Source: Lysobacter sp. Root690 (lineage in GTDB: Bacteria > Pseudomonadota > Gammaproteobacteria > Xanthomonadales > Xanthomonadaceae). From it: a stretch of DNA of 33,430 bases. Where the stretch lies: assembly GCF_001427785.1 (NCBI RefSeq), contig NZ_LMHM01000013.1:321736-355165 (forward strand). The letters are read 5' to 3'. Positions 18,598 to 30,508 of this stretch are shown in pieces (the stretch's first letter is position 1; every line of letters starts with the position of its first letter). The notes beneath the pieces were generated by a model, which had not been told where the DNA came from, did no database searches, and saw only the letters and a program-made list of their open reading frames with translations. Both the position numbers and the translations under genes were made by a program.

Positions 18598-19028
18598 GAC
18601 AATCCGGGCATAAATCCGCTGGAAAGCGGGAGGCTGGGGGAGCGGCGGGCGACCGCCATCGCAGGGTGCTGGGCGCAGATGGCAGTGCGGTGACTGTCTG
18701 TGGACCGGTGCGCGGACTTGTGCGCGCCTGCGCAGTGCGCTGGGATGACGGTCGCGGCTGCGGTGCGGGAAGCGGCGCCGGGGTTGCGAGATGAATCGGC
18801 GTTCGGCCGTCGCGTGCGTGTTCGTGATGCGCGGCCGGCATGGCGCATGCGCGGCGTTGGCCTGTCCGGCCGCGGCCGCGCGAGTGGCCGCGAACCCGCG
18901 CGCAACGTCGTCGAAACCCGCCGCATCGCACCCGTCCACGAGCCGACCGAAAGCTAAAACCGCCGCGCTGTGCCCGTCGTGGCCGCTGTGGCTATACTGC
19001 CGAATCGATCCCTTCGCAAAGGAATGCC
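18598..19028. other. divergent intergenic region, phospholipase C / VWA operon
   Basis: No gene is supported in these 431 bases; long open frames here have poor codon statistics and no ribosome site. The plus-strand operon promoter is probably at its right end: an extended-type -10, TGGCTATACT, places TATACT at 18993-18998, about 30 bases before the VWA start, without a good -35. Confidence 0.45.
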
Positions 19029-19712
19029 ATGAATCAGCCCGTGATCCCCGACGTAGCCCTGGTCGACAACACCGAACAGCGCACGCCGCTGGTGCTGGTG
19101 CTGGACTGCTCGGGCAGCATGATGGGGCCGCCGGTGCAGCAGTTGAACGAAGGGCTCAAGCTGCTGGAGACCGAACTCAAGAGCGACGTGATCGCGGCCA
19201 AGCGGGTGCGCGTGCTGGTGGTGCGCTACGGCGGTTTCGATCATGCCGAGGTGGTCGGCGACTGGTGCGACGCGATGGATTTCACCGCGCCGGTGCTGGA
19301 GGCCGACGGCACCACGCCGACCGGCCGCGCGATCGATCTGGCTTTGACCGAGGTCGAGAACGAAAAGCAGCGCTTCAAGGCCGCCGGCATCGCCTACACC
19401 CGGCCGTGGCTGTTCCTGATGTCCGACGGCGTGCCGACCGATACCTGGGAAGCCTCGGCCAAGCGCGCGCGCGAAGCCGAGCAGGCCAACAAGGTCGCGA
19501 TCTTCCCGATCGCGGTCGGCGACGGTTCGCAGGTCGGCGTCATGGGCCAGTTCAGCGGCAAGGGCGAGGGCGGGGTCAAGCGCCTGCAAGGGCTGCAGTT
19601 CCGCGAATTGTTCCTGTGGCTCAGCGCGAGCATGCAGGTGGTGTCGCAATCGCGTCCGGGCGGACAGGCGCAACTGCCGTCGACCGACACCTGGTCCTCG
19701 GTGCCGACCTGA
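19029..19712 (+). CDS. TerY-like von Willebrand factor A domain protein
   Basis: This 227-residue protein is a single VWA domain with an intact MIDAS metal site: DCSGS (D26, S28, S30), the threonines of GTTPTGRA (95-98), and D133 of MSDGVPTD. It has no signal peptide or membrane helix, so it is cytosolic. TerY-type VWA proteins occur with a PP2C phosphatase and a kinase in the phosphorylation triad linked to tellurite-resistance-type stress systems; here the next genes are exactly those. It probably presents a protein partner in a metal-dependent way, and may be a target of the kinase and phosphatase. The start at 19029 has the Shine-Dalgarno AAAGGA (19018-19023). Confidence 0.92.
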   Translation: MNQPVIPDVALVDNTEQRTPLVLVLDCSGSMMGPPVQQLNEGLKLLETELKSDVIAAKRVRVLVVRYGGFDHAEVVGDWCDAMDFTAPVLEADGTTPTGRAIDLALTEVENEKQRFKAAGIAYTRPWLFLMSDGVPTDTWEASAKRAREAEQANKVAIFPIAVGDGSQVGVMGQFSGKGEGGVKRLQGLQFRELFLWLSASMQVVSQSRPGGQAQLPSTDTWSSVPT

Positions 19713-19729
19713 GCGGCGGGGCGCAGGCC

Positions 19730-20485
19730 ATGGCTTGGCGCATCTACGCCGCATCGGCGACCGGAACTTCGCACGTCGGCAAAGGCATTCCCTGCCAGGA
19801 CGCGTTCGCATTTCATGCGGACGGCGAACGCCTGGTCGCGGTGGTTTGCGACGGCGCCGGCTCGGCGTCGCGCAGCGATCAGGGCTCGCGCGTCGTCGCC
19901 GATACGGTGACGCGCGTGCTCAGCGAACGGCTGCGCGGCGATTCGACCGTGCTGGACGACGAACACGCGTTCGAGGCGCTCGCCAGCGCAGCGATCGAGA
20001 CTGCGCGCGCGGCCTTGGTCGAGATGGCTGAAGCGGACAAGGCCTCGCTGTCGAGTTATGCCGCGACCCTGGTCGGGTTCGCCGGCGACGGACAGCGCGG
20101 CTGGTTCTTCCATATCGGCGACGGCATCGGCGTGGCCGAAGCGGCGTCGACGGACGAACCGGGCGTGGTGTCGGCGCCGGAGAACGGCGAGTACTCCAAC
20201 GAAACCTATTTCGTCACCGGCGACGCCTGGCGCCAGCACCTGCGCGTACTCGCGGTGAGCGCGTCGACCGCGCGACTGGCGCTGATGTCCGACGGCGCGA
20301 TGCCGTTCGCGATGGACAAGGGCAATACTGGCCTGTTCAAGCCGTTCATCGATCCGGTCGCGCGTTATCTGGCCTCGGTCGGCGAAGACGACGGCAGCCG
20401 CGCGCTGCTGGGCACGCTCGACGACCCGCGCACGCACGGCATCACCTCCGACGACAAGACCCTGCTGATCGCGTTGCGGGGCTGA
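19730..20485 (+). CDS. PP2C-type serine/threonine phosphatase
   Basis: This 251-residue cytosolic phosphatase belongs to the PP2C_2 group. Metal-binding and catalytic positions appear intact: D24 in PCQDAF, D41-G42 in VVCDGAGSASRSDQG, GDG at 130-132, D188 in LMSDGA and DD at 241-242 in TSDDKTLLI. It should remove phosphates placed by the kinase two genes downstream. It begins 17 bases after the VWA gene, and its start GCCATGGCTTGG is the only sensible one before the first conserved strand. This pairing with a VWA protein and a kinase is characteristic of the TerY-P triad. Confidence 0.92.
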   Translation: MAWRIYAASATGTSHVGKGIPCQDAFAFHADGERLVAVVCDGAGSASRSDQGSRVVADTVTRVLSERLRGDSTVLDDEHAFEALASAAIETARAALVEMAEADKASLSSYAATLVGFAGDGQRGWFFHIGDGIGVAEAASTDEPGVVSAPENGEYSNETYFVTGDAWRQHLRVLAVSASTARLALMSDGAMPFAMDKGNTGLFKPFIDPVARYLASVGEDDGSRALLGTLDDPRTHGITSDDKTLLIALRG

Positions 20486-20509
20486 GTCCGACGTCATGAG
20501 CACGTTGCC

Positions 20510-20686
20510 ATGAGCCCCGACGTCATGCGTTTCCAGGTCGTCAGTGGCGCGGTGGTGGGCGATGGCGTCGCGGTGGACGCCTTCGCGACCGCGCTGGCCA
20601 CAACGCACTCGCATGCTCATCGAATGAGCATGCGGCAAATGCGCCCGCAGCAAACGTGCTCGCAACAAACGGGCCCGCGTCCATGA
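20510..20686 (+). CDS. possible small protein, 58 aa, coupled to the kinase
   Basis: A 58-codon frame begins ATGAGCCCCGAC and ends in a TGA that overlaps the kinase start codon (ATGA, 20683-20686). The first 30 codons or so show the strong third-position G/C bias of real genes here (peptide MRFQVVSGAVVGDGVAVDAF). The second half does not and contains a perfect palindrome. It has no recognised domain. It could be a genuine coupled micro-ORF, a remnant of a longer gene truncated by insertion of the palindrome, or chance. It fills the otherwise unexplained 197-base gap in a tightly packed operon. Confidence 0.35.
   Translation: MSPDVMRFQVVSGAVVGDGVAVDAFATALATTHSHAHRMSMRQMRPQQTCSQQTGPRP
20611..20633. 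repeat. perfect 10-bp-arm palindrome inside the operon
   Basis: GCATGCTCAT and ATGAGCATGC flank a three-base centre CGA. It lies 50 bases before the kinase start, within the small ORF. It could be a hairpin affecting kinase translation or an operator; no T-run follows, so it is not an intrinsic terminator. Confidence 0.6.
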
Positions 20687-22155
20687 GTTTGGTCACCGGC
20701 CAGACCATCCTGATCGGCTCGCGCCGTTCGCGCCTGGGCAAGCTGATCAAGAGCGGCGGCGCCGGCAGCGTCTACCTGCTGCCGGACGATCCCAATGCGG
20801 TGGCGAAGATCTATCACGCGCGGGTCGACCCGCCGAGTTACACCGATCGCATCGAAGCCATGCTCGATCTGCGTCCGCACTTGCCCGACCAGATCGAAGG
20901 CGGCAAGCGTTACGTGCAGATCGCCTGGCCCGATGCGGTGGTGCGCGACGAACGCGGCAAGTTCGCCGGCTTCACCATGCCGGCGCTGGACGTGGATTCC
21001 ACCTCCGAACTCGAACAGGTGCTGCAGGAACGTCAGGCGCGCGCGGCCGGACTGCCGGTCGGGCTGGGCCACAAGATCACCCTCGCGGCCAATCTCGCCG
21101 CGGTGCTCGCGGCATTGCATCAGCAGCATCATTGCGTGGTCGATCTCAAGCCGGTCAACCTGCGTTTCTATCGCGCGTCGTTGTACATCGCGCTGCTCGA
21201 CTGCGACGGTTTCAGTATCCAGGGCCGCGGCCGGCGTTATTCGGCGCCGCAGTACACGCCCGATTACCTCGCGCCGGAGTATCAGGCGCACAAGCTCGAC
21301 GAAGCCGGCGAGGAAACCCAGGACCGGTTCGCCCTGGCGGTGGTGATCTTCCAACTGTTGAACTTCGGCATCCATCCGTACAGCGGCAAGCCGTCGTCGG
21401 ATCGGGTGCCGACCGATATCCCCGGACGCATCCGCGAACGCTGTTACGCCTACGGGCTGCGCGCGAACCGGATCATGGCGCCCAGTCCGGTCAGCGCGCA
21501 CGCGAGCATGCCGCAGGAACTGCGCGGCCTGTTCGATCGCGCGTTCGGCGACACGCCGTCGGCGCGGCCGCCGTCGTCTGAGTGGCGCGATGCGCTGCGC
21601 GCGTATGCGCAGCCGTCGAGCGGGCGGCTGGTGGTGTGCGGGCGCAATCGCGAACACCAGCATTACGCCGGTCAGCCCTGCGCGTCGTGCATACGCCTGG
21701 ATCTGCTCAGCAAGACCGCGCGCAAGGCCAAGCCGCGTCCGGCCACTCAGCCGCAGGATCTGCCGCGCGGCTGGGCGGCGGTGATGCGCACGCCGGTGGC
21801 GACGCCACAACCGCGGCCGCAACCGGCGCCGCGCCGGTTCGGTGCGCGGCCGCCGTTGCCCGCATCGGTGCCGCAGCAGCAGATGCCGTCGGCGGCTTCG
21901 ACTGTGCGGGGTTACCGACTTCAGACCTCGCGTTTGGTCGCGACCGCGCGCGCGGCGATGATCCTGGTGGTGCCGCTGGTGTTCGCCGCGGTGTCGTATC
22001 TGCTGCAGGGGTATTACGCCAGCCTGCGTAGCGCGGCCACTTCGCCGCTGGACGGCTGGATGAATCAGATCCTGCTGACCTTGATGGGCATCGGCTTCGT
22101 GGTGTTCTGCTATGTGTTCCTGGTGGTGCTGCCGCGGATGATCAAGAACCGATGA
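20683..22155 (+). CDS. divergent Ser/Thr protein kinase with Cys/His cluster and two C-terminal membrane helices
   Basis: This 490-residue protein has a kinase domain at about 1-305. It shows the glycine loop SGGAGSVYLL (24-33), K42 in VAKIY, the catalytic loop VVDLKPVNLRF (D154, K156, N159) and LLDCDGF (D173/D175) in place of DFG. It lacks the HRD histidine-arginine, as in the kinases of TerY-P triads. A Cys/His cluster follows (C319, H325/H327, C333-x2-C336), probably a zinc site. A Pro/Arg/Ala-rich linker leads to two membrane helices (about 424-446 and 463-484). The kinase head is therefore tethered to the inner membrane. The preferred start is the ATG at 20683; a GTG nine codons upstream is possible. 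Its TGA overlaps the ATG of the next gene. Confidence 0.9.
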   Translation: MSLVTGQTILIGSRRSRLGKLIKSGGAGSVYLLPDDPNAVAKIYHARVDPPSYTDRIEAMLDLRPHLPDQIEGGKRYVQIAWPDAVVRDERGKFAGFTMPALDVDSTSELEQVLQERQARAAGLPVGLGHKITLAANLAAVLAALHQQHHCVVDLKPVNLRFYRASLYIALLDCDGFSIQGRGRRYSAPQYTPDYLAPEYQAHKLDEAGEETQDRFALAVVIFQLLNFGIHPYSGKPSSDRVPTDIPGRIRERCYAYGLRANRIMAPSPVSAHASMPQELRGLFDRAFGDTPSARPPSSEWRDALRAYAQPSSGRLVVCGRNREHQHYAGQPCASCIRLDLLSKTARKAKPRPATQPQDLPRGWAAVMRTPVATPQPRPQPAPRRFGARPPLPASVPQQQMPSAASTVRGYRLQTSRLVATARAAMILVVPLVFAAVSYLLQGYYASLRSAATSPLDGWMNQILLTLMGIGFVVFCYVFLVVLPRMIKNR

Positions 22156-23759
22156 GCTGGCAGGGCCCACCACCGCGCTGGCATCCGCTGCGTTCGCCGC
22201 CGACCCGCTTCGCCTTGATCAAGGTGGCGGTGCTGCTGTTCTTCGTGGTGATCTTCCTGGCGCCGCTGACCGGCTGGCTGATGTCGATGCCGATGTGGCT
22301 GATGGATTTCATCGGCTATCTGGTCTCGACCTCGCGGCACAGCCCGAGCGAACGCTGGTTCCGCGGCGCGCTGGCCGTCGGCGGCGCGGTGTGCACGATC
22401 GCGGTGCTGTGGCGCGCGCGCGAGGACGGCGACGACGATCTGACCAAACGCGCGGTGATCGCCGCGAGCATCCTGGGGGTGTATCTGGCGGCGACCTATC
22501 CGGCGTCACGCGGCTCGCCGTCGCCGCGCGCCGAACGCGCCGCGCCTGGCCGCGCGCAAGCCGCGCTGTCGCCAGCGCGTGCGAGCCGCGCGCCGAACTC
22601 GCCGAACACCGTGCCGGCGAAGTGGGGCCAACCGCCGCCGCGGCTGCCGTCGGCCGACTACAACGCGCTGGCCGAACGCCTCGTGCGCGGCGCGGCGCGC
22701 AGCGCGGCCGGCGGCGATCCGTTCTTTCGCCAGCAACTGGCGATGCTCGGCGAACTACGCAAGGAGCGCGCGCCGGCCGAGGCCGACGGCGCGCGTTACG
22801 AAACCGCGATGCAGCGTTACCGGCGCAGCGTCGAAGCGGCCGTCGCGATGCGACCGGTGGGAGAAAAGGTTCCGGCCGAAAGCTACCTGCAGGCCGCGCG
22901 CAACGCAGATCCGAATTCGGCGATGGCCGCGCGCGAGCTCGGCGCGTGGCGCTTGCGCGCCTACCTGCGCCAGGTTCAGGGCGATGCCGACGGCGAGCCG
23001 GCGCGAGCCGACCATCTGCGCGAAGCCAGCACCGCGGCGCGGGCGATGTTCGTCGATGCCTTGCGCATGAATCCGTCCTACGACGGCGCCTGGCGCGGAC
23101 TGGCCTGGAGCTGGCTGTACGACGATCCGGACCTGGCCCAGGGCGCGTTGACCATCGAGGCCGATCAGCAATTCGGCGCGGGCGGCGCCAAGGCTGTGCC
23201 CGCGACCATCGGCGCGGTCGGCGATGCGGCCGGCGCGGCGGGACGGTTCCGCTTCGAAGTGCTGGAAGCGCGCGCTCGCGCGACCGCGATGGACCTGCGC
23301 AATCTGTCGGTGCCCGGCGCTATCCAGGAGGTCGCGCGCTTGCCGTTGCCGACCGCCGTCGGCCAGGCCACCCGCACGGCCGCGGCGGCGGCGAAGCAGG
23401 CCGATGCGAAGCGTGTCGCGTCGCGCGCCAATGCGATCGATCGGATCGAAGGGCCGTGGCACGACGGCAGCTTGAAAGTCGCCGGCGCGGCCGACCTGCG
23501 GGCGTGGACCGATGCGGCGCGCGCGCAGGCGGCGAGCTTCGCGCCCGGCGCCGACCTCACGCTGGCGGGCTTGCCGCGCTATCGCGTGGTCAGCGGTTTC
23601 AAGTGGCCCAAGGGCATGGCCGAGGCGAGCCCGGCGGTGTTCGTGGTGCCCGAAAGAGTCGCGCGGCCCGGCGGCGATCCCGGCAATTCGCTGGTGCTCG
23701 ACATCGCGCGCGGCGATTGCCAGGGCCATTACTGCGACGGCGTGGTGCGCTTGAATTGA
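22152..23759 (+). CDS. membrane protein with TPR-like soluble domain, partner of the kinase operon
   Basis: This 535-residue protein is translationally coupled to the kinase (ATGA overlap). Three hydrophobic segments occupy the N-terminus (about 21-45, 70-88 and 100-118), then a Pro/Ala/Arg-rich linker (120-165), then a long Ala-rich helical region. That region contains TPR-like spacing such as YLQAARNADPNSAMAARELG and MFVDALRMNPSYDGAWRGLAW. The C-terminus is a small domain ending in DCQGHYCDGVVRLN, whose two cysteines could form a disulfide or metal site. I recognise no named family. As it is always co-translated with the kinase it is probably a membrane scaffold or sensor for the phosphorylation system. 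The stop codon lies in the first unit of a 15-bp repeat array. Confidence 0.82.
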   Translation: MSWQGPPPRWHPLRSPPTRFALIKVAVLLFFVVIFLAPLTGWLMSMPMWLMDFIGYLVSTSRHSPSERWFRGALAVGGAVCTIAVLWRAREDGDDDLTKRAVIAASILGVYLAATYPASRGSPSPRAERAAPGRAQAALSPARASRAPNSPNTVPAKWGQPPPRLPSADYNALAERLVRGAARSAAGGDPFFRQQLAMLGELRKERAPAEADGARYETAMQRYRRSVEAAVAMRPVGEKVPAESYLQAARNADPNSAMAARELGAWRLRAYLRQVQGDADGEPARADHLREASTAARAMFVDALRMNPSYDGAWRGLAWSWLYDDPDLAQGALTIEADQQFGAGGAKAVPATIGAVGDAAGAAGRFRFEVLEARARATAMDLRNLSVPGAIQEVARLPLPTAVGQATRTAAAAAKQADAKRVASRANAIDRIEGPWHDGSLKVAGAADLRAWTDAARAQAASFAPGADLTLAGLPRYRVVSGFKWPKGMAEASPAVFVVPERVARPGGDPGNSLVLDIARGDCQGHYCDGVVRLN

Positions 23760-24118: not shown

Positions 24119-25537
24119 TTACACCGGCCCGTTCGGCAATTCGGACACGGTCGCACCGATGATCAGCGCGCGCTCGCTGCTGGTGGTGCCGGTGAAGGTC
24201 TGGGTCGCCGGGTCGGCCTTCCAGCCGGCGGCGAGGCTGCCGCCTTCGGCTTCGAAGGTGAACGGTCCGATCCGCAGCCCGGTGGCGGCGCGGAACGGGT
24301 CGGCGAAACGACGGAAGGTCGAGGTGGTGGTGCGGATCGCGAACGAGGGCTTGTAGCCCACGCACATGCCGTTCTTGATCAGGCCGAAGAAGCCCTTCTC
24401 GCCGAACACCGGCTGGCCGCGCGTTTCCACGGTGTCGCCGCCGAACGGGCTGTAGCCGTGGATGAACGGGCCGTCGATCATGCCGCGGGCGAATTCGCCG
24501 TCGTACCAGCCGCCCGGGCGGATGCCGATGCGGTCGACCGCCTGGAAGTCCAGCGACAGTTCGAGCTTGTTGTCGAATTCGAATTCGTCGATACGCTCCC
24601 AGCGGCCATTGATGCGGACCTGCCAGAACAGCTGGCGGATGCGGCTGCGGCGGCCGGCCCAGGTCTGGCCGAAGTCGTAGGGCGCTTCGCGATTGCTGAA
24701 ACCCAGGGTCACGCCGCTGGGGCCGTGGCCGGCCTGGACCTTCGCGACCCAGTCGGCCGCTTCCTGTTCGACCCGCCAGTCGTGGACCTTCGGCAGCTTG
24801 ATCAGGTTGAGGTCGGCGAAGCGGACCTGATGCGCTTCGTTGCCGCAGCGCAACTGGGCCTGGCCGAGTTCGGGCGATTCACACTGCGCGACCAGCGCGG
24901 CGTAATGGCTCTGGGCCTGGTTCATCGCCACTTCGGCCGCGACGATGCGGGTCTGATAGCCGGCGCCGCCGCGGCTGCCGAGCCATTCGGTGAAACTCGG
25001 ACGATTGTCGTCGACCTGATTGGCGTAGGCCGAGGCGGCCGAGGTGGTGGCCAGGGTGTAATGGTTGGTCGCCACCACCAGCGCGTCGTCGGCGTCGTGC
25101 AGGTGCTGGCGCAGGCTGCGGTACTCGGTCTGCGCCGGGATCACGTTGAGGAATTGCTGGTAGGCCTGGTGGACGGCGTCACCGCTGGACACGTAGGCGC
25201 CGATCGCGCTCCATTGCGGCGCGGTCGAGCAGAAATCGTAGTGGGCCGCGGCGATGAAGCCGGCCTGGGTGCGCGGCCAGTCCCACGGCACCGACGGGTA
25301 CATCAGCTGGAAGTCGTCGGGCGACAGGCCGATCGAATCGATCAGCGCGCGGTACAGCAGGCCCCAGGGCTTGTCGTCGAAGTCGCTGTTGGCGGCGATG
25401 TTGCCGGCGTCGAGGCGGGCGACTTCGAGCAGGCGCCGGTCCTGCGCGCCATGGCGGAATTGCGAGAGCGGACCCACGTCGTCCTGCGAATCGTCGGTGT
25501 CGCTGGCGCAGGGGTAGGGATACTCGGAATCGGACAT
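24119..25537 (-). CDS. uncharacterised 472-aa protein (helical N-half, beta-rich C-half)
   Basis: I do not recognise this protein. It lacks a signal peptide and membrane helices. The first 230 residues look mainly helical (LLEVARLDAGNIAANSDFDD, SSGDAVHQAYQQFL, SLRQHLHDADDALVVATNHY). From about 235 it is beta-rich and aromatic (FWQVRINGRWERIDEFEFDN, RIGPFTFEAEGG) and ends with a hydrophobic strand, RALIIGATVSELP. Helical-plus-beta layouts occur in some secreted or pore-forming proteins, but nothing specific supports that here. The start at 25537 has the Shine-Dalgarno AGGAG; longer in-frame starts read a Pro/Arg-rich sequence and are unlikely. It is divergent from the RNase-like gene and shares a 19-bp upstream element with it. 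Confidence 0.75.
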   Translation of the reverse strand: MSDSEYPYPCASDTDDSQDDVGPLSQFRHGAQDRRLLEVARLDAGNIAANSDFDDKPWGLLYRALIDSIGLSPDDFQLMYPSVPWDWPRTQAGFIAAAHYDFCSTAPQWSAIGAYVSSGDAVHQAYQQFLNVIPAQTEYRSLRQHLHDADDALVVATNHYTLATTSAASAYANQVDDNRPSFTEWLGSRGGAGYQTRIVAAEVAMNQAQSHYAALVAQCESPELGQAQLRCGNEAHQVRFADLNLIKLPKVHDWRVEQEAADWVAKVQAGHGPSGVTLGFSNREAPYDFGQTWAGRRSRIRQLFWQVRINGRWERIDEFEFDNKLELSLDFQAVDRIGIRPGGWYDGEFARGMIDGPFIHGYSPFGGDTVETRGQPVFGEKGFFGLIKNGMCVGYKPSFAIRTTTSTFRRFADPFRAATGLRIGPFTFEAEGGSLAAGWKADPATQTFTGTTSSERALIIGATVSELPNGPV

Positions 25538-25670
25538 GACGGTACTCCTGACTGCATCGCCGGATCGGCGCGTGGTGCCCGGGCCCCGCGCGCCGGCCGG
25601 CGTGTCGGTGTCCGGCCGTGGCACCCGCGGTCCGGATGCCGCGCAGGTTGGTCGTCGCCTCGCGCGCCTG

Positions 25671-25689
25671 CCTTACGGCAACCTTACGG
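25671..25689 (-). promoter_or_regulatory. 19-bp direct-repeat element upstream of the 472-aa protein gene
   Basis: Reading toward the minus-strand gene the element is CCGTAAGGTTGCCGTAAGG, two copies of CCGTAAGG with an 11-bp period, 134-152 bases upstream of the start codon. A T/A-rich run (TTTTTCTTTTTT on plus) adjoins it. Eleven-base direct repeats are the usual target of OmpR/PhoB and SARP winged-helix proteins. The rest of the 449-base divergent region (25538-25986) holds no gene I can support. Confidence 0.6.
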
Positions 25690-25855
25690 AGCCGTTTTTC
25701 TTTTTTGGTCAATGAGTTGGCGTCAGCTCCGTCAGGTTCGCGAGGGCCGGTTTCGGCCGGTACGGGGCGCCGATTGCGCACGCGGCTCACCGATTCACCA
25801 CCCTCGATCACCACCGGCGGCGGGCGCGATCGGGCCCGGTCGCGGCGGGCGGCGA

Positions 25856-25874
25856 CCGTCAGGTTGCGGTAAGG
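25856..25874 (+). promoter_or_regulatory. 19-bp direct-repeat element upstream of the RNase-like gene
   Basis: Reading toward the plus-strand gene this is CCGTCAGGTTGCGGTAAGG, matching the element at 25671-25689 in 17 of 19 positions when each is read in the direction of its own gene. It lies 113-131 bases upstream of the start at 25987. Equal orientation and similar distance for both divergent genes argue for a shared regulator. Confidence 0.6.
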
Positions 25875-25986
25875 CGGGGCGGAGGGAGAGGCGCGCAGGG
25901 TGAGCCTGCGGTCATCGCCGCAGCGCGAGGCAGGTGCATCGGGACGCCCGGTGCGGTCGCGTCAATGCACAACCCAGGAGAACGTC

Positions 25987-26373
25987 ATGAACGCCAGACT
26001 CGTGAAGTGGTCGCTGTCCGCCGCGCTGGTCCTCGTCGTCTCGCCGGCCTTCGCCGCCGCGCCGCCGGCCTGCAAGTCGCTGCCCAAGGACGTGGCCAAG
26101 ATGATCCAGTCGTTCGACACCTGCGCCCGCACCGAGAACCCGACCGTCGCCTGCGAGAAGCTGCAGTTGAACGCGCGGGTCTACGAGAACGACAAGGGCC
26201 TGCTGCCGCCGCTCGGCCCGATCGGCCCGAAGTATTGGCGCGCCGCGCCGGCCTTGCTGGGTTCGCCGCAGGGGCTGGTCTATCTGGTCCAGGAGAGCGC
26301 CAAGGGCCGGCCGATCACCCAGCGCTATTACACCGGCGACAGCTTCGGCAAGTTCTGCACGATCAAGAAGTAA
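25987..26373 (+). CDS. secreted RNase Sa/barnase-like protein lacking catalytic residues
   Basis: This 128-residue protein has a Sec signal peptide (cleavage near AFA-A24) and four cysteines (29, 46, 56, 124). The mature sequence follows the layout of guanyl-specific ribonucleases such as RNase Sa: SLPKDVAKMI early, VYENDKGLLP (RNase Sa: VFQNRESVLP), and RYYTGDSFGKF near the end (RNase Sa: DYYTGDHYATF). C29 and C124 fit the RNase Sa disulfide. The catalytic set seems lost: the histidine of GDH is S119, the general-base glutamate position is R85, and the arginines before it are not conserved. It is thus probably a non-catalytic member acting by binding, or a divergent enzyme. The start has the Shine-Dalgarno AGGAG (25976-25980). 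The RNase resemblance is from memory of the family. Confidence 0.7.
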   Translation: MNARLVKWSLSAALVLVVSPAFAAAPPACKSLPKDVAKMIQSFDTCARTENPTVACEKLQLNARVYENDKGLLPPLGPIGPKYWRAAPALLGSPQGLVYLVQESAKGRPITQRYYTGDSFGKFCTIKK

Positions 26374-26682: not shown

Positions 26683-27156
26683 TCAGCCGCGCTTCTTGAT
26701 GATGCCCGGCGGCACCGTGCGCGGGTCGTTGCCGACCTGCGGATCGCAGGAGATCACCCGCAGGTCGTTGCTCTCCTCATCGCGCACCAGCACGGTGAAG
26801 AAGATCAGGGTCTGCACGGTGTTGCGGTTGTGCATGCTCACGCTGCGGCCGTCTTCGGCGACCTTCACCTTGTGGATCTGCTTGAAGGCGTCGGAGTTGA
26901 GCACGCTGACGATCTGGAAGCGCTGCGGCACCTGCGCCTCGAACTTGTAGGTGATCACCACCGGGCCGGCGCCCTGCACGGTCACCACGTCCGGCGCGAA
27001 GCTGTAGAAGTACTGGCCGAGTCCGGCGTTGCCGCCGAAGCCGACGTAGGCGACGGTCAGTTCGATCTCGATCGGCGCCGGATCGCCCTTCTTGCCCGAC
27101 TTCTTCTGCTTTTCCGGCGCGGCGGCGGATTTCTTGCTGTCTTTCTTGCTGGCCAT
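26683..27156 (-). CDS. small beta-rich protein of uncertain family
   Basis: This 157-residue protein starts with a Lys/Ser/Ala-rich tail (residues 1-26, SKKDSKK, PEKQKKSGKKG). A compact beta-rich domain follows: IEIELTVAYVGFGG, YFYSFAPDVVTVQG, VVITYKFEAQVPQRF, VKVAEDGRSVSMHNRN and TLIFFTVLVRDEES, ending in SCDPQVGNDP. The last motif and the strand order faintly recall the small DP-EP (DUF1888) proteins, but I would not rely on that. It has no signal peptide. Start supported by AGGA about ten bases upstream. It lies 49 bases downstream of the large nSTAND regulator on the same strand and could be co-transcribed with it. Confidence 0.75.
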   Translation of the reverse strand: MASKKDSKKSAAAPEKQKKSGKKGDPAPIEIELTVAYVGFGGNAGLGQYFYSFAPDVVTVQGAGPVVITYKFEAQVPQRFQIVSVLNSDAFKQIHKVKVAEDGRSVSMHNRNTVQTLIFFTVLVRDEESNDLRVISCDPQVGNDPRTVPPGIIKKRG

Positions 27157-27205: not shown

Positions 27206-30200
27206 TCAGTAGAACGCGACGAAGCCGGGATGGCGGTAGCCGGCGCGTTGCAGCCAGGCGATCTGGGTGGAGGCTTGCGCGCGCGTGCCCAGGTGGACCT
27301 GGGTGCGCACCCAGGCTTCGAGCAGGTTGCGGTCGCGGGTGCCGGTCACGCGCTTGGCGAGCAGTTCGCGCACCCGGTTCCAGTCGTCGCGCGCGCGCGC
27401 GGTGTCACCGGCGCGCTGGTAACGTTCGCCGCGCCAGACCAGGCTGCGCGCGAGCATCGACAGGATCGGCGGGTCGTCCGGCGTCTGCCGGTGCAGCGCG
27501 TCGAGGTCGGCGACCAGTCGGTCGATCGCGGCCTGCGGCGGCGCCGCGGCGACCTGGTCCATGCGCAACCGCACCAGCAGGTCGAGCACGCGCCAGTCCG
27601 GCAACGGTTCGGTCTGTTGCAACAGCGGCGCCAGCACCTGCTGCGCGCGGCGCAGGCGTTCGTCGGCCAGTGCGGAAACGCCGCGCAGGTGCGCGACCCA
27701 GCCGGCGTGCGCGTAGGCATGGCCGAGGTTGCGGCGCCAGTCGCGATTGTCGGGCTGCTGTTCGACCAGCGCGCCGAGCAGGCGGATCGCTTCGGCGATT
27801 TCGTTTTCGGCATCGTCGGCCAGACCGCGATCGAGTGCGAGCACCGAACTGCGCAGCAACGAGGTCGCCAGCTTGCGCCGCCACGCGTCGGCTTCGGGCT
27901 CACTGTCGACCAGCTCGCGCAGCATCGCGGTCTGCGCGGCGTAACCCTTGGCGGCGTCGGCCAACTGGCCGCGCGCGTCCTGCGCGCTGCTCAGCCACGA
28001 CAGGCTGTCGACCAGTTCGTAGCGCAGCGGTTTGTCGGCCGGCTTGGCCGCGAGCAGGGCGCGCTTGATCGCGACCGAGCGCGCGAACAGTTCGGCCGCT
28101 TCGTCGCTGCGCAGGCGCACGAAAGCCAGCGTGCCGAGGTTGTTGAGCGCGTACGACAGTTCCAGTTGCCAGCGCGGATCCTTCGGTGCGCGCGCGACCA
28201 GACCTTCGCTGGCGTGCAGATAGGCCTGCCAGTATTTTTCCGCCGGGTCGTACTGGTTCTTTTGATAGGCGTAATAGCCGAGCCAGTACGCGGTGGTCCC
28301 GGTCTCGGCCAACGCATCGAGCGAGTCGGGCGCGCCGGCTAGCGCGCGCCGCGCCGCATCGTCGGCGCGTTCGAACGCGGCGCGCGCTTCGTCGAAGCGG
28401 GCTTGGTTCATCAGCACTTCGCCGACCGTGCGCAATGCGCGCGCGTGGCTGACCAGTTCGCGCGGCTGCATTTGCGTTTCGGGCATGCGCTCCAGGTAGG
28501 TCAGGGCCTGGCTGCCGACGCTGTCGAGCAGTTTCAGATTGCCGATCGGACGCAATTGCTCGGCCAGATCGCCGAGCATGAAACCTACGAGTTGCTGGGC
28601 CTGATCGCGGCGTTGCTCGGCTTCGCGCCGCGCCTGCCAGGCCTGCAGGCCCAGCCCGGTCGCGGCGAGGGTCAGCACGCACAGGCTGGCGATCGCGCTG
28701 ACGCGCAGCCATTGCTTGCGTCGTTGCTGACGCTCGGAGGCTTGCAGGAACTGGCGATCGTCTTCGCCCAGATCGTCGGGCAGACGGCGCGCGGCCTCGC
28801 GCGCTTCGGCCAGCGGCCGGCCGGGGTTGAGCAGGTGATCGGCGCGCCGGCCTTCCAATGCCCAGCGCCGGGTCGCGCGTTGCAGGCGTTCGCGCGCCTG
28901 CAGCAGTTGCCGGTTTTCGTTGGCCCATTCGCGCGCGCGCGGCCATTGCCGCAGCAGCGCTTCGTGGGCGACGCCGAAGCCCGGTTCGCCGCCGCTGAGT
29001 TCGCCGACGAACAAACGGGCGCGCACGAAAGCTTCGGCCAGTTCGCGCGCGGCCGCATCGTCCAGAGTCGACCACAGCACCCGCCGGCCGGTGACCGCGT
29101 CGCTGTCGGGACGCAGCACGATCAGCGCCGCGAGCACCCGTTCCAGGCTGGCCTGCGCGCTCGCCGGCAGCGCGGCATAGACCTGTTCGGCGCGATGCGC
29201 GAGCGCACCCTCCAGGCCGCCGAGTTCGCGATAGGTGCTGACGCTGAGCACGCCGCCTTCGTCCTGGCGTTCGTACAGCGCCTGCAGGGTGTGCTGCAGC
29301 AGCGGCAACGAATCGGGATGTTGAGCGGCGGCGTCGCGCAGCAGATCGTCCAGGCGCAGCGAGCTTTCCGGATCTTCGCCGAAACTCAGCCCGGCCAGCG
29401 CCGCGGGCGCGCGGATGATCTGGCCGATCTCGCCTTCGCGCGGCGTGAGCAGGTCGATATGGCCGTCGCCGGCCTTGAGTTCGGCCAGGCCGGGCACGCT
29501 TTCGATCAGGCGCGGGTAGAAATCGCTGCGGGTGATCGCGATCACCGCGACGCGTGGCGACGCGCACAGCGCGGTCAACGCGGCGCCGAACTCGGCGCGA
29601 TCGCGCGCGTCGATGCCGGGCGCGGCGACCGCGGCCTCGGCGTGATCGACCACCAGCAACAGATGTGCGCGTTCGGCCAGATGCGCGGTGCGGCGCGCGA
29701 ACGCGTCGTCGATGCGCGCATGCACCGCGGTCGGTGTGTCGCGCAATTGCGCCGCGAGGATCTCGGCCTCGCCGGGCAGGTACAACGGGCGGCCATCGAG
29801 CGACCAGTCGCACAAGCTCTGGGCCAGCCGCGCGAGCAGGTCGCCGCCGCGGCAGGCGCCCAGGTCGAAGTAGGCGCTGGTCAGCGCGTGCAGTCCGTCG
29901 AAGCCGCCATCTTGTTGCAGCAGCGGCATCACCGCCGCGCGCAGCAGCGAGGTCTTGCCGCAGCCGCTGGCGCCCGACACCAGGACGAAGCGGCGCTGGC
30001 TGTCGAGTTGTTCGCGCAGGGTCGCCAACAGTTCGGCGGTGGCGCGGCTGCGGCCGAAGAACACGCCGGCATGGGCCTGGTCGAACGAACGCAGGCCGAC
30101 ATACGGACTGCCCTGGGTCCACGCCGCCGCGCGCGGCAGGCCGCTGCGGTAGTCGTCGGGAAAGGTCACCCGCGCGACCAGGCGGTAGCCGCGCTTGCGG

Positions 30201-30508
30201 ATGGTTTCGATGTAGTCCGGTTCGCGGCTGCTGTCGCCCAGCCGCCGGCGCAGTTGGGCGATGGTCTTGTGGACCGGGTTGTCGCCGTAGAAGGTGCCGC
30301 GCCAGATTTCGATCAACAGCTGTTCGGCGCTGATGACTTCGCCGGCGCGCTCGGCCAGCGCGATCAGCACTTCCATCATCCGCGGTTCCAGCGCGGTGGT
30401 GACGCCGTCGCGCACGATCGCCAGGCGGTCGGGCTGCACCAGCAGCGCGCCGATGCGGAACTGCGATACCGCCGCCAGGTTCTTGATCCGGTCGATGCGT
30501 TGGGGCAT
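27206..30508 (-). CDS. winged-helix / nSTAND NTPase / TPR membrane-bound regulator
   Basis: This 1100-residue protein has an OmpR/PhoB-type winged helix (about 15-113: MEVLIALAERAGEVISAEQL, then NPVHKTIAQLRRRLGD and IRKRGYRLVA). An nSTAND1-type NTPase follows (SPYVGLRSFDQAHAGVFFGR at 134-153; Walker A GASGCGKTS at 179-187; Walker B LLLVVDHAE at 283-291). One membrane helix lies near 600-622, and the rest is helical with TPR-like repeats. CadC-like topology is expected: DNA binding and NTPase in the cytoplasm, TPR sensor outside. The Walker B reads DHAEA instead of the common DQFEE but keeps D and E at the key spacing. The start at 30508 directly precedes the winged helix. Targets are probably nearby genes. 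Confidence 0.9.
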   Translation of the reverse strand: MPQRIDRIKNLAAVSQFRIGALLVQPDRLAIVRDGVTTALEPRMMEVLIALAERAGEVISAEQLLIEIWRGTFYGDNPVHKTIAQLRRRLGDSSREPDYIETIRKRGYRLVARVTFPDDYRSGLPRAAAWTQGSPYVGLRSFDQAHAGVFFGRSRATAELLATLREQLDSQRRFVLVSGASGCGKTSLLRAAVMPLLQQDGGFDGLHALTSAYFDLGACRGGDLLARLAQSLCDWSLDGRPLYLPGEAEILAAQLRDTPTAVHARIDDAFARRTAHLAERAHLLLVVDHAEAAVAAPGIDARDRAEFGAALTALCASPRVAVIAITRSDFYPRLIESVPGLAELKAGDGHIDLLTPREGEIGQIIRAPAALAGLSFGEDPESSLRLDDLLRDAAAQHPDSLPLLQHTLQALYERQDEGGVLSVSTYRELGGLEGALAHRAEQVYAALPASAQASLERVLAALIVLRPDSDAVTGRRVLWSTLDDAAARELAEAFVRARLFVGELSGGEPGFGVAHEALLRQWPRAREWANENRQLLQARERLQRATRRWALEGRRADHLLNPGRPLAEAREAARRLPDDLGEDDRQFLQASERQQRRKQWLRVSAIASLCVLTLAATGLGLQAWQARREAEQRRDQAQQLVGFMLGDLAEQLRPIGNLKLLDSVGSQALTYLERMPETQMQPRELVSHARALRTVGEVLMNQARFDEARAAFERADDAARRALAGAPDSLDALAETGTTAYWLGYYAYQKNQYDPAEKYWQAYLHASEGLVARAPKDPRWQLELSYALNNLGTLAFVRLRSDEAAELFARSVAIKRALLAAKPADKPLRYELVDSLSWLSSAQDARGQLADAAKGYAAQTAMLRELVDSEPEADAWRRKLATSLLRSSVLALDRGLADDAENEIAEAIRLLGALVEQQPDNRDWRRNLGHAYAHAGWVAHLRGVSALADERLRRAQQVLAPLLQQTEPLPDWRVLDLLVRLRMDQVAAAPPQAAIDRLVADLDALHRQTPDDPPILSMLARSLVWRGERYQRAGDTARARDDWNRVRELLAKRVTGTRDRNLLEAWVRTQVHLGTRAQASTQIAWLQRAGYRHPGFVAFY

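Follow-up and report, generated by a model that had tools for sequence, protein, structure and literature searches.

The locus and its genes

The window, that is, the whole 33,430-base stretch of DNA analysed here, contains two divergent genes that encode a 472-aa and a 128-aa protein, and two 19-bp elements between them, each facing its own gene (Table 1). An earlier note on this stretch, made from the sequence alone, had reported that the two elements agree in 17 of 19 positions, that they have the same orientation relative to the gene that each one faces, and that their distances to the starts at 25537 and 25987 are 134 and 113 bases. All of these observations were confirmed. A repeat finder with default seeds reported nothing at this locus. 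A scan of the 33,430-base window for CCGTMAGGTTGSSGTAAGG at up to three mismatches returned two matches where 0.05 would be expected, and none of 100 shuffles of the window had two matches when scanned at three mismatches.

Table 1. Features of the locus and of the related loci named in the text; positions without a locus label are those of the window
Feature	Position	Strand	Description
Target gene, 472-aa orphan family	24119..25537	-	No Pfam, NCBIfam or PADLOC match
-10-like hexamer CAACCT	25645..25650	-	A at +22 after the candidate operator; predicted +1 near 25638
Candidate 19-bp operator CCGTAAGGTTGCCGTAAGG	25671..25689	-	Direct repeat CCGTAAGG TTG CCGTAAGG with 11-bp period; faces the gene starting at 25537
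IHF-like word GGTCAATGAGTTG (tentative)	25707..25719	.	Two mismatches to WATCAANNNNTTR; upstream of the 25671 candidate operator
Lone half-site CCGTCAGGTT	25729..25738	+	Without a good second repeat; between both candidate operators
Candidate 19-bp operator CCGTCAGGTTGCGGTAAGG	25856..25874	+	CCGTCAGG TTG CGGTAAGG; faces the gene starting at 25987
-10-like hexamer CAGGGT	25896..25901	+	A at +23 after the candidate operator; predicted +1 near 25908
Target gene, 128-aa protein	25987..26373	+	Signal-peptide-like N-terminus; no family match (Pfam, NCBIfam)
Partner gene, 157-aa protein	26683..27156	-	Directly downstream of the regulator gene; predicted beta-sandwich like SO1698 (annotated aspartic peptidase)
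Proposed regulator gene, 1100-aa protein	27206..30508	-	OmpR/CadC-type winged helix 38-110, nSTAND1 NTPase 135-556, hydrophobic segment about 603-621, TPR repeats
76-aa protein gene (GDPAPGERKYLYIVW...)	L006, 7955-8185		Two tandem candidate operators, only the nearer one with a -10 at the right distance
Short-wHTH loci	L202, L205, L207, L210, L212, L213, L214		NarL-like frame nearby in 7/7; Luteibacter label inferred

The earlier note had also placed a winged helix fused to an NTPase close to the repeats, and the protein encoded at 27206-30508 does have both parts. Its matches to 12 Pfam families at E up to 0.01 include Trans_reg_C for the winged helix (E 1e-16) and nSTAND1 for the STAND NTPase module (E 8e-87 over residues 135-556). 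The SARP bacterial transcriptional activation domain is absent from these 12 families, no receiver domain was matched in the regulator, and the winged helix is itself N-terminal. Among solved structures, the best match in a sequence search was the DNA-binding domain of CadC (5ju7, E 3e-15). A hydrophobic 19-mer after residue 500 was called from hydropathy in 53 of the 55 homologues whose frame is 800 codons or longer, the misses (L091 and L092, both Lysobacter) falling below threshold; the same rule picks out residues 307-325 of the NTPase as well. A role in a known defence system was considered and rejected, PADLOC having given only weak partial matches to the NTPase region.

The protein encoded directly downstream of the regulator gene has a predicted beta-sandwich fold (mean pLDDT 83.6) that resembles SO1698 (Foldseek E 2e-8) and, less closely, MakD (E 3e-4) and PixA (E 3e-3). 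Residues Y49, D126, C137, D138, P139 and Q140, with the latter four forming a C-D-P-Q sequence, are invariant in 25 aligned homologues. Self-cleavage is attributed to SO1698-like proteins, and the invariant residues of the partner may hint at self-cleavage or at a structural end motif. No related description of the partner protein was found among the matches listed for the open-licence literature, as judged by title. The 472-aa target protein has a predicted structure with a mean pLDDT of 49.5, and the best match of its profile against the PDB has an E of 0.56. Beside the target genes, the stretch 18791-23759 encodes in succession a PP2C-type phosphatase, a protein whose kinase-domain match is weak and a protein of 535 aa. 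In part of the genus the last of these finds an almost full-length match beside the locus; elsewhere the match covers its first ~100 residues.

Spacing of the repeat relative to a -10 box

An alignment of the flanks of 127 sites revealed an unexpected box, and the sites were then cut to 62 whose flanks are less than 60% identical. In 50 of these 62 non-redundant sites, the element is followed by an AnnnT box with its A at +22 or +23 (+22 in 30 sites, +23 in 21, one site having both), while each of the other offsets is found in 0-4 sites, with ~1.3 expected. A box at +22 or +23 puts the repeat's centre at about -42 or -43 relative to the predicted start sites. This is the position of a class II activator, which is centred near -41.5, next to the -35 position. 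The consensus is an 8-bp half-site, CCGTMAGG, repeated in tandem with an 11-bp period, 20-21 bp upstream of a sigma70-type -10 (NAnnnT). The whole element spans about -51 to -33, where it would touch the place of the missing -35.

Tandem direct half-sites with an 11-bp period are a feature of OmpR/PhoB-type operators, and the period was compared with nine others. With a period of 11, 131 sites were counted, 107 of them with a -10, in 77 of 95 loci (the locus sets overlap, as for L183 and L093, and were counted together, so some are duplicates). The nine other half-site periods yielded 0-5 sites with a -10. The half-site pattern used here and in the locus scans below came from these very sites, which by itself raises the count for period 11 to some degree, but does not produce the coupling to the -10.

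An IHF-like word is position-specific upstream of some sites, and it occurs in two orientations. Among the 62 sites, one orientation has 4 perfect words and 14 at up to one mismatch, and the other has 14 at up to two mismatches. The word in Table 1 is compared with WATCAANNNNTTR, which we take to be the IHF consensus. No IHF-like word was seen by eye upstream of the 25856 element, and the IHF reading is therefore kept tentative.

Copies of the element in the genome and the genus

In the 6.3-Mb genome from which the window comes, there are five matches to the element at up to two mismatches, and none to the reversed pattern. The random genome-wide scatter that the earlier note had set against its own reading was thus not seen. 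Four of the five matches precede three genes: the window pair, and two matches before the unlinked 76-aa gene on another contig (L006). The fifth lies antisense within an open reading frame that resembles prolyl oligopeptidase (named by eye from the translation), and is probably a coincidence. At this threshold, the recognisable regulon in the genome amounts to two loci and three genes, and a large regulon was rejected on these grounds.

Fifteen of the 20 genomes of the genus carry the regulator, at 75-100% identity. An exact copy of a slightly relaxed 19-mer is found at this locus in all 15, such that the motif is retained in each of the orthologous intergenic regions, from which the earlier note had considered that it might be missing. 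The five regulator-free genomes have no element match below two mismatches. Allowing two mismatches across the 20 genomes gives 66 matches, compared with 37 for the reversed pattern; this is a real background, so only matches with zero or one mismatch, or matches with a -10, count. A later, wider pattern was applied to the 15 loci (14-16 kb around the regulator, plus the window). It identified 28 sites, distributed over 15/15 loci and all with a -10, and the reversed-text control identified one site, without a -10.

The unlinked target gene behaves in the same way. The 76-aa gene is present in 12 of the 20 genomes, all of them among the 15 regulator carriers, and an element with a -10 precedes it in 12/12 loci; PADLOC gave no match for its product. 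Three Lysobacter genomes have a further copy of the 472-aa gene (~50% identity), which comes with a divergent pair of sites of its own; the second site of the pair has two mismatches. A Lysobacter paralogue of the regulator at 43% identity (L046) has no site, and the turn before its helix is altered. The eight other winged-helix (wHTH) loci found in the window's own genome have neither the FYGDNPVHK helix nor a site in the roughly 3.2 kb scanned at each.

Co-occurrence of the element and the regulator

The earlier note had proposed that the motif should co-vary with the regulator, and two scans bear this out. In the first, a strict 20-mer, which the window's own two sites do not match, was found in 13 of 247 genomes of the family, and all 13 are among the 40 genomes with a regulator match at E up to 1e-100 (13/13 with the motif versus 27/234 others; Fisher 8e-12, the related genomes in this and the other conservation and co-occurrence counts not being independent). 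In the second, the composite of repeat and -10 was found in 29 of 397 genomes of the order (33 sites), with no match for the reversed control. A regulator match at E up to 1e-60 is present in 22 of these 29 genomes versus 30 of the 368 others (Fisher 3e-16). In 17 of the 22 the regulator is near full length; three have shorter frames of 482-729 codons (G339, G371, G492), and in two Xanthomonas-type genomes (G108, G239) it is in pieces, with the site retained.

The remaining seven of the 29 genomes are informative about which part of the regulator goes with the site. In each, a short wHTH protein is encoded no more than about 100 bp from the site; its recognition helix carries GDNPVHK, and it is 47-57% identical to the wHTH of the window. 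The frames of these proteins end 98-135 residues past the helix, and hence lack the NTPase and TPR parts. That the site is kept beside a short wHTH in seven genomes indicates that the winged helix, not the NTPase, accompanies the site. Beyond the order, the composite was found in 0/364 genomes; among the 369 genomes of the class, which comprise these 364 and five listed genomes of the order, the window's own genome was the sole match.

The association is less complete when viewed from the side of the regulator, which was matched in 52 of the 397 genomes of the order, 30 of the 52 being without the strict composite. A site with a -10 near the regulator is absent from 6 of 20 fetched family loci and from 14 of 60 genome-contig loci (the sets overlap, and the second omits L102 and L117, and also L090-L092, these last three as Lysobacter duplicates). 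Fifteen of the loci have no recognisable site (L119, L120, L125, L129, L131, L133, L134, L141, L143, L144, L149, L195, L197, L198 and L201), and in L135, L136, L137, L199 and L200 sites are present without a -10. Distant homology, paralogy, a short contig or a truncated gene would account for many of the loci that have no site with a -10, but not for some others, such as L131 and L198. Among 27 Xanthomonas loci, only L144 and L149 are without a site with a -10, and there the regulator is matched in part (1-466, 1-395).

A chance origin of the repeats is rejected by the window scan, the genome scan, the period test and the class-wide composite scan, and the two matched repeats of 19 bases almost certainly function as genuine gene switches. 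The assignment of the repeats to the winged helix encoded at 27206-30508, which the earlier note had put forward, is well supported by sequence comparison, namely by the genome scan, conservation in the genus and co-occurrence.

One element before unrelated genes

A related-locus search retrieved 65 loci with relatives of the regulator. The element is found near the regulator in Xanthomonas (AACCGTAAGGTTGCCGTCAGG), at a median of 89 nt from the start codon in a 19-member cluster, in Luteibacter, Rhodanobacter and Tahibacter (mostly CCGTAAGGTTTYCGKAAGG), and in MAGs. In most of the other loci, but not in all, a weight matrix built from 13 distinct Lysobacter sites beats the reversed and the column-permuted controls.

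The element mostly adjoins the same regulator yet precedes unrelated genes across genera. Downstream start codons were picked by a simple script, and some single products are doubtful among the 99 that were predicted. Their larger clusters are mutually unrelated: the 472-aa family (22 members), small Xanthomonas proteins (19), the 76-aa family (14), small XRE-type proteins (12), the 128-aa family (11) and NarL-type response regulators (7). Since the clusters are unrelated, the target varies, and the site and the winged helix are constant. Homologues of the 472-aa protein in two Xanthomonas loci, a MAG and L182 likewise follow a site with a -10. By a simple hydropathy rule, N-termini resembling signal peptides were found in 9/9 members of the 128-aa cluster and in 15/16 of the Xanthomonas cluster, these being members chosen by N-terminal patterns (9 of 11 and 16 of 19 of the clusters).

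The site is not always linked to the regulator. In a genome with the inferred genus label Aquimonas (L167), a strict site lies on a different contig from the regulator. The -10 of this site is correctly spaced, an IHF-like word is present, and a start codon follows 111 nt downstream. The product of the gene downstream is a glycine-rich repeat protein, whose N-terminus, DPDFHDGPW, is faintly like the DFDDKPW of the 472-aa family. Four loci (L109, L113, L114, L116) each have two paralogous wHTH-nSTAND genes. A site before a small XRE-type gene near or between these paralogues suggests a cascade.

Proposed mechanism and alternatives

These data make it very likely that the repeats are operators of the winged-helix domain of the 27206-30508 regulator, a protein that would work by class II activation, with a STAND switch and membrane anchoring. 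That the wHTH regulator is what reads the repeat is itself probable. Two winged helices would sit head to tail on the same face of the DNA, and in tandem would help RNA polymerase, as a class II activator does, at a promoter that has no -35. The STAND NTPase may act as the switch that permits two protomers to pair, and one helix would hold the regulator in the membrane with the TPR part outside. The regulator would then act like a one-component receptor of the CadC/ToxR type with an ATP-driven step, and the system as a whole would be a small regulon of a STAND-coupled, CadC/ToxR-like activator that is probably membrane-anchored.

A fuller model can be offered tentatively. In this model of a membrane-anchored STAND regulator that occurs in many Lysobacterales, the periplasmic TPR part would sense a signal together with the SO1698-like, possibly self-cleaving partner, whereupon the NTPase would pair the winged helices on the repeat at -42. 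The regulons would be tiny and consist of fast-changing orphan and secreted proteins, and IHF would bend the DNA upstream of some of the promoters. As an account of the whole system it has perhaps a minority chance of being correct.

Position alone favours activation over repression. A protein at -42 can block RNA polymerase as well, and the regulator might therefore bind the elements mainly as a repressor or at an autoregulatory site; in Rhodanobacteraceae, where the regulator gene and its divergent neighbour flank the site, it may act on the regulator too. This alternative is unlikely given that the promoters have no -35 and a precise 20-21 bp distance to the -10, and that the downstream genes are mostly not the regulator, with a possible exception in Tahibacter, where the gene downstream of the site could be the regulator itself (L126).

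It is less probable still that the site has another reader, for example a divergent NarL-type response regulator or a dimer on the CC-GTAA-GG dyad of each half-site, and that the STAND regulator is a passenger of the locus. Such a reader would fit the partial dyad in the half-sites, which appears as AACC-GTAA-GGTT in many sites, as well as the NarL-type gene that follows the site in seven Luteibacter-type loci and the NarL-like frame that adjoins it in 7/7 genomes with a short wHTH. However, many Lysobacter sites do not retain the flanking AA (CTCCGTAAGG), no period but the 11-bp tandem one is coupled to a -10, the seven NarL-type products among the 99 all come from Luteibacter-type loci, and a wHTH is found in 29/29 genomes that bear the composite. 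The least probable reading is that an alternative (ECF-type) sigma factor recognises the repeat as its -35 region and AnnnT as its -10. This would suit the fixed spacing to the -10-like box and the lack of a recognisable -35, but the spacing rules for a sigma -35 speak against it (the gap is 20-21 bp, and the element, at about -51 to -33, is longer and farther upstream), as do the 11-bp tandem repeat and the seven genomes with just a short wHTH beside the site, which an unrelated sigma factor would not explain.

If the repeats are operators of the winged-helix regulator, a STAND-fused winged-helix regulator gains an operator together with a promoter architecture, and a regulon that can be tested. 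Among the matches listed for the open-licence literature, subscription papers lying mostly outside its coverage, neither a described target of this STAND-fused regulator nor a description of the system was found, and no related description of the motif string, as judged by title. The natural NTPase-less forms that keep the winged helix and the site offer a ready-made route to the role of the STAND module. For unrelated orphan and secreted genes, the single operator would provide a common regulatory label.

Comparison with known systems

Members of the OmpR/PhoB family bind tandem half-sites with an 11-bp period at a class II-like position. The Lysobacter regulator shares with OmpR/PhoB response regulators the winged-helix family, the tandem 11-bp half-sites and the class II-like position; unlike them, it has an NTPase and TPR repeats, and no receiver domain was matched in it. 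The partner protein is like SO1698 of Shewanella in its predicted fold, and the two share a D-P-Q ending (profile E 5e-4), although the identity is low (15-21%).

CadC and ToxR-like proteins are membrane one-component activators with an N-terminal OmpR-type winged helix, as in the Lysobacter regulator, whose one hydrophobic segment, called from hydropathy C-terminal to the effector part, would correspond to their membrane helix. To our knowledge, CadC has no STAND NTPase. The sites also differ. CadC binds AT-rich quasi-palindromic stretches far upstream, with Cad1 at -153 to -113 (PMC5430869). By that account, the Lysobacter-type site is unlike a CadC site, since it consists of GC-rich tandem repeats that adjoin the core promoter, and a CadC-like, far-upstream AT-rich site was rejected for this reason (PMC5430869).

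AfsR offers a comparison for the STAND module. It is a large SARP of Streptomyces that combines a winged helix with BTA, NOD and TPR parts, and ATP relieves its auto-inhibition (PMC10936776). The same source supports two likenesses: a winged helix, a STAND NTPase and TPR repeats in one protein, and 11-bp direct repeats in the DNA (PMC10936776). By this analogy, the STAND module would control the action of the winged helix as in AfsR. No BTA domain was matched in the Lysobacter regulator, which has a hydrophobic segment between the NTPase and the TPR repeats. In PMC10936776, the afs box is centred at -29.5 and the downstream repeat of a SARP site lies 8 bp from the -10, whereas the Lysobacter-type repeat is at about -42, 20-21 bp from the -10. 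A SARP operator was rejected on both counts, the absent activation domain and the spacing of 20-21 versus 8 bp (PMC10936776). The earlier note had likened the repeats to the sites of OmpR/PhoB and SARP winged helices; the 11-bp tandem repeat agrees with this, but the placement and the activation domain of SARPs do not. Because its repeat is at a class II position, the group is set apart from the AfsR/SARP type. From its sequence features, the system is most aptly called a STAND-coupled winged-helix one-component activator whose operator has a class II position.
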